Source: Desulfohalobiaceae bacterium (GTDB lineage Bacteria; Desulfobacterota; Desulfovibrionia; Desulfovibrionales; Desulfothermaceae). Taken from it: a stretch of DNA of 43,495 nucleotides. Shown in pieces: positions 5,278 through 26,512 of this stretch. The DNA is taken from positions 1-43,495 of the forward strand of contig JALWFY010000088.1 in assembly GCA_027013815.1 (NCBI GenBank), written 5' to 3'. A program made the translations under genes and the position numbers. A model generated the notes under the pieces. The model saw nothing but the letters and a program-made list of their open reading frames with translations. It ran no database searches and had not been told where the DNA came from. Numbering within the stretch: position 1 is the stretch's first letter; every line of letters starts with the position of its first letter.

Positions 5278-6969
5278 TTAAACAAGCAACATCTCACTTA
5301 AAGAGGCACCTGCTGGCACCATTGGATAAACATTTTCTTCTTTTTCAATTACCATCTCCACCACACAAGTCTTTTCAGAACTCAACGCTCTTTTCAATAC
5401 ATCCTCAACCTCATCTGGCTTAGTTGCCCTATATCCTTCTGCTCCATATGCCTCTGCTATTTTGACAAAATCAGGGTTATATTCTAGGTGGGTAGAACTA
5501 TAATTCCTATTATAGAACAATTCTTGCCACTGTCTTACCATACCTAGATAAGAATTGTTCAAGATAATTATCTTTACAGGAAGATTATACCATACTGCAG
5601 TAGCTAGCTCCTGAATATTCATTTGAATAGAACCATCCCCTGCTATGTCCACCACTAACTTATCTGGATACGCAATTTGTGCACCAATAGCAGCAGGAAA
5701 TCCATATCCCATTGTACCTAACCCCCCAGAGCTAAGTAAGGTGCGTGGCCTCAAATACCTGAAGTGTTGGGCTGCCCACATCTGATTTTGACCAACTTCA
5801 GTGGTTATTATGGCGTCTCCTCCTGTTAATTCATATAATTTCTCGATTACAAATTGAGGTTTTATCACCTCATCAGATTTGACATAAGTTAGAGGGTGCG
5901 CCTCATTCCATGCAGTTATCTTATCCCTCCAGGACTCGTAGTTATCTGAAATATCCTTCTTCTTTTTAATGGTTATTAGTTCATTCTTTAGGGTCATCAA
6001 TGCCTCTTTACAATCTGCTACTATTGGAATGTCAACCTGTACATTTTTTCTAATAGAGGTTGGGTCTATATCCACATGAATTATCTTTGCTGATGGAGCA
6101 AATGTGTCTACTCTACCAGTAACTCTATCATCAAAACGTACACCAACCGCTAAAATCACATCAGCATGATTTACTGCCATATTGGCAACATATGTACCAT
6201 GCATCCCCAACATACCTAACCACAAGGGATCATTGCCTGGAAACGATCCCAACCCCATAAGGGTAGCTGTTACAGGGATCTTTAATTCACGGGCAAGCCA
6301 GGTGAGTTCTTCATGAGCAGATGAAGCAATTACTCCACCACCTGCAAATATAAGTGGCCGCTTGGCATTTAAAATTAGTTCTAAGGCCTTTTTGACCTGC
6401 TTTAGATTGGGCTGGTAATGTGGATTATAGCTACGAAGATGAACACTTTTTGGATATTCAGGCTTTATTACTGAAGCCATTATATCCTTAGGAAGGTCCA
6501 CTAAAACTGGACCTGGCCTTCCAGATTTTGCTATGTAAAATGCCTCTTTTATTATCCTGGGGAGCTGTGATAAGTCCTTTACCAAATAGTTATGTTTTGT
6601 ACATGGCCTGGTAATCCCTACAATATCTACCTCTTGGAATGCATCGTTCCCAATCAACATCCTGGGCACCTGGCCTGTAAATACCACCAAGGGGATTGAA
6701 TCCATATATGCTGTAGCTATACCTGTAACAGTATTAGTAGCCCCAGGACCAGAGGTCACTAAAACCACTCCCACCTTTCCTGTGGCCCTAGAATATCCAT
6801 CTGCTGCGTGTACTGCAGCCTGTTCATGCCTAACAAGATAATGTTTAATTGGATAATTCGGCAATTCATGATAGATATCTATAACTGCCCCACCAGGAAA
6901 TCCAAAGATTACTTCTACTCCCTCTTGCTTTAAACATTCAAGAAGTATCCGGGCCCCTTTCATTTTCAT
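5278..6969 (-). CDS. ilvB: Acetolactate synthase, large catalytic subunit
   Basis: IlvB condenses pyruvate with pyruvate or 2-oxobutyrate using thiamine diphosphate and FAD. This 563-residue protein shows the catalytic glutamate stretch '[18 protein letters not shown]' near residues 48-65, the FAD-binding middle domain and the ThDP/Mg signature '[15 protein letters not shown]' followed by 'ILNN' in the C-terminal domain. The start at 6969 overlaps the stop of the upstream small gene (TAATG) and uses a GGAGGG nine bases before it. It is translated as part of the long minus-strand operon; ilvN and ilvC follow. Confidence 0.97.
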
Positions 6970-21557: not shown

Positions 21558-22283
21558 CTAAGGTGTTGTTATTATTTTACCCAATTCCTTTAATTCCTGT
21601 CTTATCCCTTGCACAAAACCATTGGCCTTACATGTCCATAACTGATCTAGTGCACCAGAAAATATTATCCTTCCATCTTGAATTATAAATATCTCCTCCC
21701 CTAGATAAACTGCTTCTATTGGATCGTGGGTTACGTGGATAATAGTCAAAGAAAATCTATTTTTTATGTTTTTTAAAAACTTAATTAACTTCATCTTTAG
21801 GTGAAAATCAAGACCAGTTAAAGGCTCATCCAAGAGTAAGACATCTGGCCTTGCTACTAAAGAACGGGCAAGGGCCACTCTCTGTCCTTCACCACCACTG
21901 AGCTCATTTGGGAACCTTTCCATTAGGTGAACAATATTGAACTCTTTTACAATCATGGAAATAATAGATTCATCAATGGAAATCCCTCTGGCCTTAAAGG
22001 GAAAATAGAGTTGTTCTTTGACCCTTAGATGGGGGAAAAGCCCCAAATTTTGAGGTAAATATACTATATTACGTTTTTCTGGAGCAAGGTTTGATATATC
22101 TCTTTTTTTTAGCCTTACATAGCCTCCATATATTTTTTCAAAACCTGAAATGGCCTTTAAGGTAAGACTCTTACCAGAGCCACTTGGCCCAAGCATTATA
22201 TTGTAACTGTTCTCTTTTATACAAAAACTTACCCCCAGGGAAAAGCCATTCTTGTATTTGTTTGAGATATTAATGTCTAGCAT
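21558..22283 (-). CDS. wtpC: Tungstate/molybdate ABC transporter, ATP-binding protein
   Basis: This 241-residue ABC ATPase has Walker A 'GPSGSGKSLTLKAI' (about residues 32-45), the Q-loop 'YLPQNLGLFPHL', the signature 'LSGGEGQRVALARSL' (about 122-136), Walker B 'VLLLDEPLTGLD' and the H-loop 'HVTHD'. It lacks the C-terminal TOBE domain of ModC-type subunits, so it does not sense oxyanion itself. It overlaps the permease gene by 14 bases. The WtpC naming follows from the substrate-binding protein of the same operon; modC or tupC would be other labels. Confidence 0.88.
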   Translation of the reverse strand: MLDINISNKYKNGFSLGVSFCIKENSYNIMLGPSGSGKSLTLKAISGFEKIYGGYVRLKKRDISNLAPEKRNIVYLPQNLGLFPHLRVKEQLYFPFKARGISIDESIISMIVKEFNIVHLMERFPNELSGGEGQRVALARSLVARPDVLLLDEPLTGLDFHLKMKLIKFLKNIKNRFSLTIIHVTHDPIEAVYLGEEIFIIQDGRIIFSGALDQLWTCKANGFVQGIRQELKELGKIITTP

Positions 22284-23049
22284 AGTGTCTGCTCAAATAT
22301 AATAACAGGAAAAAAATCAAAACACATAAAAAGATCACAAGTGCAGAAACTGGCCTAGCTGCACTTAATCCATATTCCTCGAACCTCTCATACATGAGCA
22401 CTGGGGCTGTTTTTGGATAATATGCAATTATTAAGATGGCCCCAACCTCGCTAATACTACGGGCAAATGCAAGCACTGCTCCCCTTAATATTGAGGGGAA
22501 TGCAAGTGGAAAGGTTATATGGAAAAAAGTATAACTAGAAGATGCCCCAAGGGTCCTGGACACCATCTCAATTTCTTGTTCAATACTATCAAATCCAACA
22601 AGTGCAGAAGATATTACAAACGATATACTCACAAAGAGCATGGCTATTGTTATCCCATAAACTGTGTCCACAAAGGAGATGTGAAAGAGATTAAAAAAAG
22701 AACCAACAACCGTTCTATCATTAAAAAGTGAAAGCAAGGCTATACCCACTGCAACATGGGGGATTGCAACAGGAAGGTTTATAACACTCTCTAAAATTGC
22801 CCTTCCCCTAAATCTATTTTTGCTCAAAAAATAGGCAAATGGGATCCCCATAACACACCCCAGTAATGTGGCGCAAATAGAACAACCTATGGATACAAAA
22901 ATAGATGTCCATACTGTTTTATCCAATATAGTGGCAATCAAACTCTTTGCTGAGAGCTTTATAAAGATATGTAAAATAGGGACAATAATAAAAAATAGGG
23001 TTATTGTGCTAATTATTATTGCCCCTTTTCTAAGTATCCCTTGATCCAT
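22270..23049 (-). CDS. wtpB: Tungstate/molybdate ABC transporter, permease
   Basis: This 259-residue inner-membrane protein has about six membrane helices and the ModB/CysT/WtpB-type coupling loop 'EIEMVSRTLGASSSYTFFHITFP' (about residues 165-190), the EAA motif that contacts the ATPase. The first helix is near residues 10-32 and the last near 232-252. 'LPVAIPHVAVGIALL' in the centre is typical of sulfate/molybdate-type permeases. It follows wtpA by 87 bases; a 27-codon ORF fills that gap. Confidence 0.9.
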   Translation of the reverse strand: MDQGILRKGAIIISTITLFFIIVPILHIFIKLSAKSLIATILDKTVWTSIFVSIGCSICATLLGCVMGIPFAYFLSKNRFRGRAILESVINLPVAIPHVAVGIALLSLFNDRTVVGSFFNLFHISFVDTVYGITIAMLFVSISFVISSALVGFDSIEQEIEMVSRTLGASSSYTFFHITFPLAFPSILRGAVLAFARSISEVGAILIIAYYPKTAPVLMYERFEEYGLSAARPVSALVIFLCVLIFFLLLYLSRHYARH

Positions 23050-23136: not shown

Positions 23137-24105
23137 TTAATCTTTTATAATCTTAGCAGGAAAGATTGGAATTTGTTTACACTTAGATAATATCTCTTTC
23201 CCAACATTACCTGTTACAAAGTCTTCGAACAGTTTTGCCTCTTTTATATGGTGAGAATTTTTTAACACAGTAATTCCATATACTATTGGCTTTCCTGTTA
23301 TTACCTTTTTATTATAAAGGGTTATTTTTGCCCTTTTATAAAGATTAGTACATTGCATGTCTCCAAGATTTATCTCCCTGGGAAGGGACAAATAATTTAG
23401 ACCATGTTGCAGAGCCACACTCTTGTATTCAAAGGCATAATCAATGGCACCCCCTTCAAGGAGACCCAAAAGCTCCACTGACTTATGCCTTATAAACAAC
23501 TTCCTTCCCTTTGTGTGTATATCCCTTGGCGTATAAAAATATATTGTGTTTTTTATTTGTTTAAAATCAATGTTTATATTTTTTTTCAATAGATCATTTA
23601 TTATGTCTTGATCTTTATAGTAAATAGAGGCAAGGCCAAGCGCTATAATCGTCCTGTATCCACAGGGATCGTCATTTGGATTTGAAAAACCCCATTTCAC
23701 ACCCTTTTTAGATAGTATTTTATACCAGTTATTTTGATTTATATATTTTGCATATCTTGATCCCTTTGTATAACATAATACAAGCTCATTTCTTGCAAAA
23801 AGTTTTACATGATCTGTATATTTTCCAAATAGCATCTTTGGGATTAAAGAATAATCAGCAACAGCAATAACATCACATGACTTATGTATATCTGTTATCT
23901 TCCTTATTGCCTTAACACTTCCACTTACCTCCCTCCTTACATCAATATAAGGATATTTTTTCTCAAATGCCTTTTCTATCTTAGAAAAAGGTACAGATAG
24001 ACTACCTGCATGAAACACCTTTAAAACTACCTTATCCTTCGCATACAATGGAGCTGATAGAAAAAGGCCTAAAAATAAAACAAGATAAAATAATTTTTTC
24101 CACAT
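23137..24105 (-). CDS. wtpA: Tungstate-binding periplasmic protein, WtpA family
   Basis: This 322-residue periplasmic binding protein captures tungstate (and molybdate) for the WtpBC importer. A signal peptide ends at 'LYA' near residue 22. Family stretches: 'LKVFHAGSLSVPFSKIEKAF' just after it, 'DVIAVADYSLIP', 'GFSNPNDDPCGYRTI' and 'GAIDYAFEYKSVA', whose Ser, Asp and Glu residues make the octahedral oxyanion site in WtpA proteins. I chose the ATG at 24105 because GGAGG stands eight bases before it; an in-frame ATG at 24120 precedes that site. Selectivity for W over Mo is inferred from the family. It is the first intact gene of its operon. Confidence 0.9.
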   Translation of the reverse strand: MWKKLFYLVLFLGLFLSAPLYAKDKVVLKVFHAGSLSVPFSKIEKAFEKKYPYIDVRREVSGSVKAIRKITDIHKSCDVIAVADYSLIPKMLFGKYTDHVKLFARNELVLCYTKGSRYAKYINQNNWYKILSKKGVKWGFSNPNDDPCGYRTIIALGLASIYYKDQDIINDLLKKNINIDFKQIKNTIYFYTPRDIHTKGRKLFIRHKSVELLGLLEGGAIDYAFEYKSVALQHGLNYLSLPREINLGDMQCTNLYKRAKITLYNKKVITGKPIVYGITVLKNSHHIKEAKLFEDFVTGNVGKEILSKCKQIPIFPAKIIKD

Positions 24106-24151
24106 GATAATTACCTCCAAAATGTTTATAAAATAAGATTAACCAGCCATG

Positions 24152-24676: not shown

Positions 24677-25336
24677 ATGTGCAAATTAGACCTTAATAAG
24701 ATTAAACCCTTTGAGGAATTTTCTCAGGAATATGACAATTGGTATGAGGAAAATATTCATATCTATAAAGGGGAACTTGCACTTATAAGACAACTGATTC
24801 CTAAGACAGGGACAGGGCTTGAGATTGGGATAGGCACAGGGAGATTCGCCATACCCCTTGGTATTAAATTGGGCATAGACCCCAGTATTAATATGATGAA
24901 AAAGATAAAAAATAACAATCTATCTCTAATATGCTCTATTGGAGAAAATTTACCCATAAAGCCCAATATCCTTGATTTTGTATTTATGTCAACTACCCTT
25001 TGTTTTTTAACTAGTGTGGAGAAAACATTTGAGCAAATACATATGGTATTAAGGCCCAATGGATATTTTATACTTGGATTTATAGATAGGGAAACAGTAC
25101 TTGGAGAGACATATCTTAGAAAAAAACAAGGAAATAAATTTTATAAAAACGCTATTTTTTACTCCACAGATGAGGTAATTTCTTATTTAAACAAATACTG
25201 TTTTGAGATAGTTACTATTAAACAAGGATTAATTCCTGGCAAATCAACGGATTTTGTACTTAATGGATATGGAGAGGGAGGTTTTGTTGTTATAAAATCA
25301 AAAAAACATAGGAGATCTTTGACATGGTCAGATTAG
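24677..25336 (+). CDS. Class I SAM-dependent methyltransferase
   Basis: This 219-residue methyltransferase has motif I 'GLEIGIGTGRFAIPLG' (about residues 53-68), the acidic end of strand two 'GIDPS', motif II-like 'LDFVFMSTTLCFL' and the post-motif 'VLRPNGYFILGFIDRE' (about 128-143), the pattern of the UbiE/Methyltransf_11 group acting on small molecules. The substrate is unknown. Its stop overlaps the start of the selenoprotein gene by 13 bases, so the two are translationally coupled; the product or substrate may be linked to selenium, sulfur or metal chemistry. The ribosome site is weak. Confidence 0.85.
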   Translation: MCKLDLNKIKPFEEFSQEYDNWYEENIHIYKGELALIRQLIPKTGTGLEIGIGTGRFAIPLGIKLGIDPSINMMKKIKNNNLSLICSIGENLPIKPNILDFVFMSTTLCFLTSVEKTFEQIHMVLRPNGYFILGFIDRETVLGETYLRKKQGNKFYKNAIFYSTDEVISYLNKYCFEIVTIKQGLIPGKSTDFVLNGYGEGGFVVIKSKKHRRSLTWSD

Positions 25337-25584
25337 AAGTCTATCACAGTGGAAATCCTGCATGAAGGACATGCAAAGTGGCTATAGGTATAGCCAATGA
25401 GATGAAAGAAATATTTAAAGACAGATTAGAATTGAGTATTGATACTATACACTCTGAAAAAGCAAAGAAATATAATTTTAAGACCTCAACAAATATGATC
25501 TTAAATGGAGAGAGATTACATATAAAAACAGCTTTAGACAAAAACAAACTCAAAGAACTAATTGAGGAAAAAATAAACAAATAA
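25324..25584 (+). CDS. Thioredoxin-like selenoprotein (UxxC), UGA = Sec at codon 14
   Basis: Translation from the ATG at 25324 (AGGAGA eight bases upstream) gives 86 residues if the TGA at 25363-25365 is read as selenocysteine. Residues 2-8 (VRLEVYH) form the first thioredoxin strand and the motif GNPAURTCK places Sec14 and Cys17 as a UxxC redox pair at the start of helix one. Then come 'LELSIDTIHSEKAKKYNF' (strand two and helix two) and 'TNMILNGERLHI' (strands three and four), and a C-terminal helix. The usual cis-Pro before strand three appears absent (Thr56-Asn57). A GTG at 25378 would give only a beheaded fold. It is likely a thiol/selenol oxidoreductase, and the partner is unknown. It overlaps the methyltransferase gene. 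Confidence 0.85.
25363..25396 (+). promoter_or_regulatory. Sec UGA codon with bacterial SECIS-like hairpin
   Basis: The TGA at 25363-25365 is followed 13 bases later by a perfect stem TGGCTAT/ATAGCCA (25379-25385 with 25390-25396) closing an AGGT tetraloop (25386-25389). A stem of this size whose loop carries GGU about 20 bases after UGA is what SelB recognises in bacterial selenoprotein mRNAs (as in E. coli fdhF). Confidence 0.75.
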
Positions 25585-25630: not shown

Positions 25631-26512
25631 ATGACTACTTTATTCACCACCAAAGAGGTAGCTAATTATTTAAAAATAAATGAAAAAAAAGTTTATCAAT
25701 TAATAAAACAAGGGAGCATACCCTGTACAAGGGTAGCTGGAAAATGGCTATTTCCAAAAGAAATGATTGATGAATGGATAAAAAGGAGTGTAAAGACCCA
25801 GCAAGATATCTATATTGCTGGAAGCAATGATCCATATCTGGCCTATTTAATATCTATTTTTACAAAAAAGAATTTTCCCAACATACTGGTGTGTTATGCA
25901 AGTATTGGAAGTGCTAAGGGGCTTACTTCTCTTGCCACTAATAAGGCAACCATTGCTGCAACACATTTATTTGATCCCAAGAGTGGAGAATACAATCTCC
26001 CATTTATAAAAAAATATTTAAATGATACTCCTGTTGTAGTTGTAAATTTTGCGTACAGGGAACAGGGATTTATTGTACAAAAAGGAAATCCATTGCAAAT
26101 AAAAGAAATAATGGATTTAACCAAACAAGGTATTCGTTTTATCAATAGAAATCCAGGTTCAGGGACAAGGCTATTATTTGACCATCTTATACAAAAAGCA
26201 GAAATAAATAGCTCAGTGATAAAAGGTTATTCCCAAGAGTTGAATACCCATTTGGATGTGGGCCTTCACATATTTAGCGGCAGGGCAGATGTGGGCCTTG
26301 GTATTAAATATATAGCAGAACTCTTAGACCTTGATTTTATTCCAATTACCTCTGAGAGATTTGACCTTGTAATCAGAAAAGAAGATTTTGACCTTCATCA
26401 TATACAAAAATTTCTGTCCTTATTAGATCCAATAAATACATCCTTGTACGCCGAGAGATTTCCAGGATATGATTTTAAAGATACTGGAAGGATAATATAT
26501 CAAGACAAGTAA
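25631..26512 (+). CDS. HTH (excisionase-type) regulator with periplasmic-binding-protein-like ligand domain
   Basis: Residues 1-52 are a MerR/excisionase-like helix-turn-helix ('FTTKEVANYLKINEKKVYQLIKQG' region, ending in the wing 'RVAGKWLFPKEMIDEW'). Residues about 58-290 form a PBP-like domain of the kind fused to HTH modules near molybdate/tungstate genes: 'IYIAGSNDPYLAYL', 'CYASIGSAKGLTSL', 'FINRNPGSGTRLLFDHL' and 'SGRADVGLGI'. The 'RNPGSGTR' loop is the hallmark anion-binding turn. It probably senses tungstate or molybdate and controls the divergent wtp operon; the exact ligand is inferred. The ribosome site is weak and it follows the selenoprotein by 46 bases. Confidence 0.85.
   Translation: MTTLFTTKEVANYLKINEKKVYQLIKQGSIPCTRVAGKWLFPKEMIDEWIKRSVKTQQDIYIAGSNDPYLAYLISIFTKKNFPNILVCYASIGSAKGLTSLATNKATIAATHLFDPKSGEYNLPFIKKYLNDTPVVVVNFAYREQGFIVQKGNPLQIKEIMDLTKQGIRFINRNPGSGTRLLFDHLIQKAEINSSVIKGYSQELNTHLDVGLHIFSGRADVGLGIKYIAELLDLDFIPITSERFDLVIRKEDFDLHHIQKFLSLLDPINTSLYAERFPGYDFKDTGRIIYQDK

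Follow-up and report, generated by a model that had tools for sequence, protein, structure and literature searches.

The locus considered here raises the question of whether a TGA near the start of a short reading frame is a stop or a selenocysteine codon and, if the latter, what kind of protein the frame encodes and what that protein does. We analyzed a 43,495-nt stretch of DNA from a Desulfohalobiaceae bacterium (the window), in which an ATG at position 25324 opens a frame whose 14th codon is TGA and which then continues through 72 sense codons to a TAA (Table 1). A sequence-only reading had proposed that this frame encodes a thioredoxin-like selenoprotein of a family that it could not name. 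We found that the 86-residue translation matches the NF045809 model (TsoX) at 101.4 bits, the cut-off being 52, with residues 3 to 83 covering positions 2 to 82 of the 82-position profile, and that the locus is, as judged from this match, tsoX, a member of the “HSGNPxU motif (seleno)protein TsoX” family. The earlier proposal of a thioredoxin-like selenoprotein gained support from the family match, from conservation of the UGA, from the sel genes of the organism, and from the predicted fold. Taken as a whole, the best explanation, and one that we regard as very probable, is that this tsoX gene encodes a Sec14/Cys17 selenol redox protein that is re-reduced by NADPH-thioredoxin reductase. Four independent lines of sequence evidence agree in pointing to tsoX: the family match, the conserved UGA and Cys, the codon-position pattern, and the covariation of a downstream hairpin.

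Table 1. Features of the tsoX region (positions are those of the window)
Feature	Positions	Strand	Remarks
wtpC-like ABC ATPase	21558..22283	-	NF040840 WtpC, 202.7 bits; best match, below cut-off of 440
wtpB-like permease	22270..23049	-	NF040839 WtpB, 273 bits; best match, below cut-off of 340
wtpA, tungstate ABC transporter substrate-binding protein	23137..24120	-	PRK04168 WtpA, 399 bits (cut-off, 355); TIGR03730, 366 bits
Class I SAM-dependent methyltransferase, 219 aa	24677..25336	+	Pfam Methyltransf_11, 50.2 bits
Shine-Dalgarno-like AGGAG	25310..25314	+	9 nt ahead of ATG; read from sequence
tsoX	25324..25584	+	Predicted selenoprotein of 86 aa; Sec14 encoded by UGA; active site U14-R-T-C17; ends at TAA
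In-frame TGA, Sec codon 14	25363..25365	+	Same codon in relatives
Bacterial SECIS hairpin (predicted)	25379..25396	+	Core 25380-25385 with 25390-25395; loop AGGU, 25386-25389
Excisionase-type HTH plus PBP_like (molybdate/tungstate-type) domain	25631..26512	+	PF12727, 231.7 bits; PF12728, 57.3 bits

Haft and Tolstoy reportedly described the TsoX family in 2025. Since the family has already been catalogued, the window gene is a well-supported new example rather than a new kind of selenoprotein. In a 2026 review (PMC13188914, Table 1), TsoX is listed as “predicted with high confidence,” with reference to Haft and Tolstoy 2025. The window gene shares with the family the full-length match, the HSGNPxUxxC motif, the position of the UGA, and the size; its own motif, HSGNPAURTC, fits the HSGNPxU pattern with a Cys at +3 that is conserved in the family alignment, and all 24 aligned homologues (24/24) match NF045809. 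Small archaeal thioredoxins of the MJ0307/MTH807 type (TIGR00411; 1nho) resemble TsoX in fold, in length, and in having their first active-site Cys at the position of Sec14. However, the window protein scores only 22 bits against that model (cut-off, 92.75) and differs in carrying Sec for Cys and Thr for the cis-Pro. Similarly, SaoT (NF040730) and the HUIPC-motif thioredoxin-like selenoproteins (NF047660) are small thioredoxin-like UxxC selenoproteins, but the window protein falls far below the cut-offs of both models (15.3 bits versus 65 for SaoT). A Pfam search with the window protein returned no thioredoxin family, the best matches being below the cut-off and unrelated.

Homologues above the NF045809 cut-off were found in 4 other genomes of the same taxonomic family and in 20 genomes from a sample of the phylum, the latter recovered by HMM search. 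Together with the window's own this makes 25 TsoX genomes, 24 of which contributed to the alignment; the member from G002 was left out. TGA stands at residue 14 in 23 of the 24 aligned sequences (the window's included) and also in the unaligned G002 gene, so that the same codon is kept in 23 other genomes of the phylum, always with a Cys at +3, a residue that is invariant in the aligned members. Re-reading of the coordinates upheld the TGA at codon 14, the 72 open codons beyond it, the ribosome-binding site ahead of the ATG, and the UxxC arrangement, all of which had been noted from the sequence. A frame of 72 codons after the UGA was open in 0.08% of composition shuffles. Comparison between genomes gives stronger tests than this shuffling. 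Besides the TGA kept elsewhere in the phylum, the differences from a congener (L011) past the UGA number 19 at first, 6 at second, and 37 at third codon positions, and this excess at third positions is the mark of a translated frame. The homologues neither stop nor start at the UGA; they are continuous across it.

Two relatives are irregular. In one (L053:155-412; G304:C179), the Sec codon is replaced by TTA (Leu) and Cys17 is retained; its hairpin can still pair, with one C-G changed to U-G, and its genome carries selB above the cut-off. The replacement may reflect a natural loss of the catalytic residue, or it may be an artifact of assembly. A Leu in place of Sec would not be tolerable in a simple selenol enzyme, and the case counts against our best explanation. 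The other is the G002 gene (G002:C47:15794-16025, congener L033), whose frame is lost beyond about residue 49; the genome is 43% complete, and the frameshift is probably due to an error in the draft assembly. Protein-pattern scans of genome contigs and viral contigs yielded no TsoX relatives; among the likely reasons is that Cys codons took the place of the UGA when the query was back-translated.

Downstream of the UGA, the window contains the hairpin UGGCUAU-AGGU-AUAGCCA, whose stem begins 13 nt and whose loop begins 20 nt after the UGA. As the sequence-only reading had described, the stem is a perfect one of 7 bp with an AGGU loop; the outermost U-A pair, however, is not conserved among relatives, which reduces the conserved core to 6 bp. 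The 61-nt region around the hairpin folds with a z score of -3.4 (2 of 200 shuffles were equally good). Across 23 distinct sequences, 96.4% of cells in the core are paired and 8 double changes are seen (U-A to C-G in five sequences, the other exchanges being single cases), a score for pairing and covariation that none of 500 shuffles matched, and pairing falls to 20 to 52% once the 3′ arm is shifted by 1 to 3 columns. Because the hairpin lies inside the coding sequence, part of its conservation is owed to the protein; it is the double changes that speak for RNA structure. An Rfam search of the region gave nothing except a chance sRNA match below threshold.

All four of the sel genes that had been named as worth seeking elsewhere in the genome were found: selA (586 bits), selB (392 bits), selC (RF01852, 84 bits; called by ARAGORN as tRNA-SeC with anticodon tca), and selD, the last interrupted by its own in-frame TGA. 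The selB model also matches in all 25 TsoX genomes, above the cut-off in 23.

These findings bear directly on two simpler accounts of the TGA. One is that it is a true stop, with the downstream frame either decayed or separately started, e.g., at GTG 25378, from which a 68-aa frame does run. We consider this highly improbable, as the homology and the codon-position pattern cross the UGA, the active-site motif spans it, the TGA is kept in 23 other genomes, and the hairpin covaries; an ordinary stop and an internal GTG start were both rejected on these grounds. The other account, in which an alternative code or near-cognate read-through inserts a standard amino acid at the UGA, draws on the open frame alone and seems to us scarcely credible given a full Sec machinery that includes tRNA-Sec(UCA), a Sec position that coincides with the catalytic Cys of thioredoxins, and the lack of any similar TGA-interrupted ORF elsewhere in the window; an alternative code was accordingly rejected as well. 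Ordinary gene calling would shorten tsoX to 13 codons or misplace its start.

The structure of TsoX was modeled with AlphaFold2 from the 24-sequence alignment (pLDDT, 95.4; pTM, 0.84). The model contains strands at residues 2 to 8, 35 to 41, and 56 to 60 and helices at residues 15 to 34, 46 to 50, and 73 to 85, and its best PDB neighbors in Foldseek are thioredoxins (probability, 1.00; TM score, about 0.7). We are therefore confident in predicting a thioredoxin fold of beta-alpha-beta-alpha-beta type with the redox pair at the N terminus of helix 1. Consistent with this, the first active-site Cys of the thioredoxins 1nho and 4x43 aligns with position 14 in a profile search, and the thioredoxin cis-Pro aligns with position 56. 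Position 56 is a Thr in 22 of the 24 members, followed by Asn in 19. The absence of the cis-Pro before strand three (Thr-Asn in its place) had been remarked on earlier as odd for a thioredoxin; the residue is indeed absent, but since Thr56 is so widely shared, its loss is a trait of the family rather than an anomaly of this protein, and the fold is still that of a thioredoxin. A review of the thioredoxin fold (PMC2757866) ascribes to the cis-Pro a probable role in shaping the substrate site and a possible one in keeping CxxC thiolates from binding metal. With Thr56 in its place, substrate handling of the ordinary thioredoxin kind is unlikely, a point that weighs against the best explanation.

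As to function, one relative (L079:6588-7881; G152) has a TsoX, with its in-frame TGA, that continues at its C terminus and in one frame into a complete thioredoxin reductase (TIGR01292, 383.7 bits; cut-off, 343; the TsoX part scores 94.4 bits). The fusion makes a selenol/thiol oxidoreductase reduced from NADPH the likeliest role, although it stands on a single metagenome-type contig, which counts against the best explanation. In such a cycle, an oxidized substrate (a disulfide, sulfane-sulfur species, or metalloid/thiol adduct) would be attacked by the Sec14 selenolate; Cys17 would resolve the selenenylsulfide; and NADPH-thioredoxin reductase would restore reduced TsoX. A different view of the same thioredoxin-fold selenoprotein, which we think unlikely, is that Sec14 and Cys17 serve mainly to bind a metal or metalloid, making TsoX a chaperone or scavenger and not a reductase. 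Such a role would fit the Thr at a position where a cis-Pro may block metal binding, and also the location of tsoX downstream of TsoR, an ArsR/SmtB-type metalloregulator, in relatives. However, the reductase fusion favors redox turnover, and conserved Cys or His ligands are wanting beyond His8 (23/24). As for the chemistry of TsoX as a redox protein, we lean toward metals or metalloids or chalcogens rather than general protein reduction because of the methyltransferase partner (see below), the tungstate-uptake neighbors in this genus, the presence of TsoR elsewhere, and the missing cis-Pro.

The surroundings of tsoX take two forms in the genomes that carry it. The first places tsoX behind tsoA; a TsoR-like ArsR/SmtB-type regulator is often present upstream, and one example has tsoC in between. 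This neighborhood is a common TsoX trait that lies outside the definition of the NF045809 model, and a TsoA match on the tsoX contig was found in only 8 of the 25 TsoX genomes. The window departs from this TsoR-TsoA-TsoC operon context, its tsoX lying beside a methyltransferase and wtpABC-like genes, without TsoA, TsoR, or TsoY, none of which was found above cut-off in the genome. The second form pairs tsoX with a class I methyltransferase gene, as in the window genome and in three unrelated lineages (G262, G281, and G297). In the window, the end of the methyltransferase gene shares 13 nt with the start of tsoX, an arrangement that suggests a single transcript and coupled translation. In G281 the methyltransferase gene precedes tsoX by about 80 nt, in G262 it follows tsoX by about 20 nt, and in G297 it is found two genes downstream. 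Pairing within 1 kb was seen in 4 of 21 cases, and since the methyltransferase family is present in 84 of 395 sampled genomes, a random gene of this kind would rarely fall so close to tsoX; three of the four cases, however, were used to build the query profile, leaving G281 as the sole independent find. The wtp genes are divergent from tsoX, and the same set of ABC genes adjoins tsoX in the congener L033, as judged by eye. The gene downstream of tsoX probably encodes an oxyanion-responsive regulator. One speculative and, in our estimation, quite unlikely possibility is that TsoX and a dedicated methyltransferase form a two-protein module outside the Tso operon. The selenol would hold or reduce a metal(loid) or chalcogen species for subsequent methylation by its partner, and in the genus of the window the module would have a link to tungstate uptake.

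Three observations on TsoX may be new: its pairing with a methyltransferase, its fusion to a reductase, and the relative in which Leu replaces Sec. To the sequence evidence on the family the present analysis adds the hairpin covariation, the fusion, the near-universal loss of the cis-Pro, and the recurrent methyltransferase partner; the fusion and the pairing yield testable ideas on the electron donor and the partner of TsoX.

Several minor observations concern these neighborhoods. On the contig with the fusion (L079), the interval between a TsoA-like gene (5687-6097) and tsoX (6588) holds a DsrE-family gene (PF02635), which likewise has an in-frame TGA (VGVUPPC) and matched no NCBIfam family. 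A genome of the same taxonomic family as the window's carries a TsoR-TsoA-TsoY cluster (G008:C65:4887-6913) and has no TsoX match. In another lineage, the same methyltransferase family adjoins a homologue (L112:328-1269) of the HTH-PBP_like regulator from the window, with no tsoX adjacent. The methyltransferase family itself (the window's member and those of L075, L078, and L094) scored above the cut-off of no NCBIfam model, and in other genomes a small J-domain-like protein, named by eye, is adjacent at 9 of 30 loci. Finally, lookalikes of uroporphyrinogen-decarboxylase/MtaA-type methyltransferases, again judged by eye, occur near tsoX in L031 (9544-10578), in L063, and in L079, about 2.1 kb downstream.
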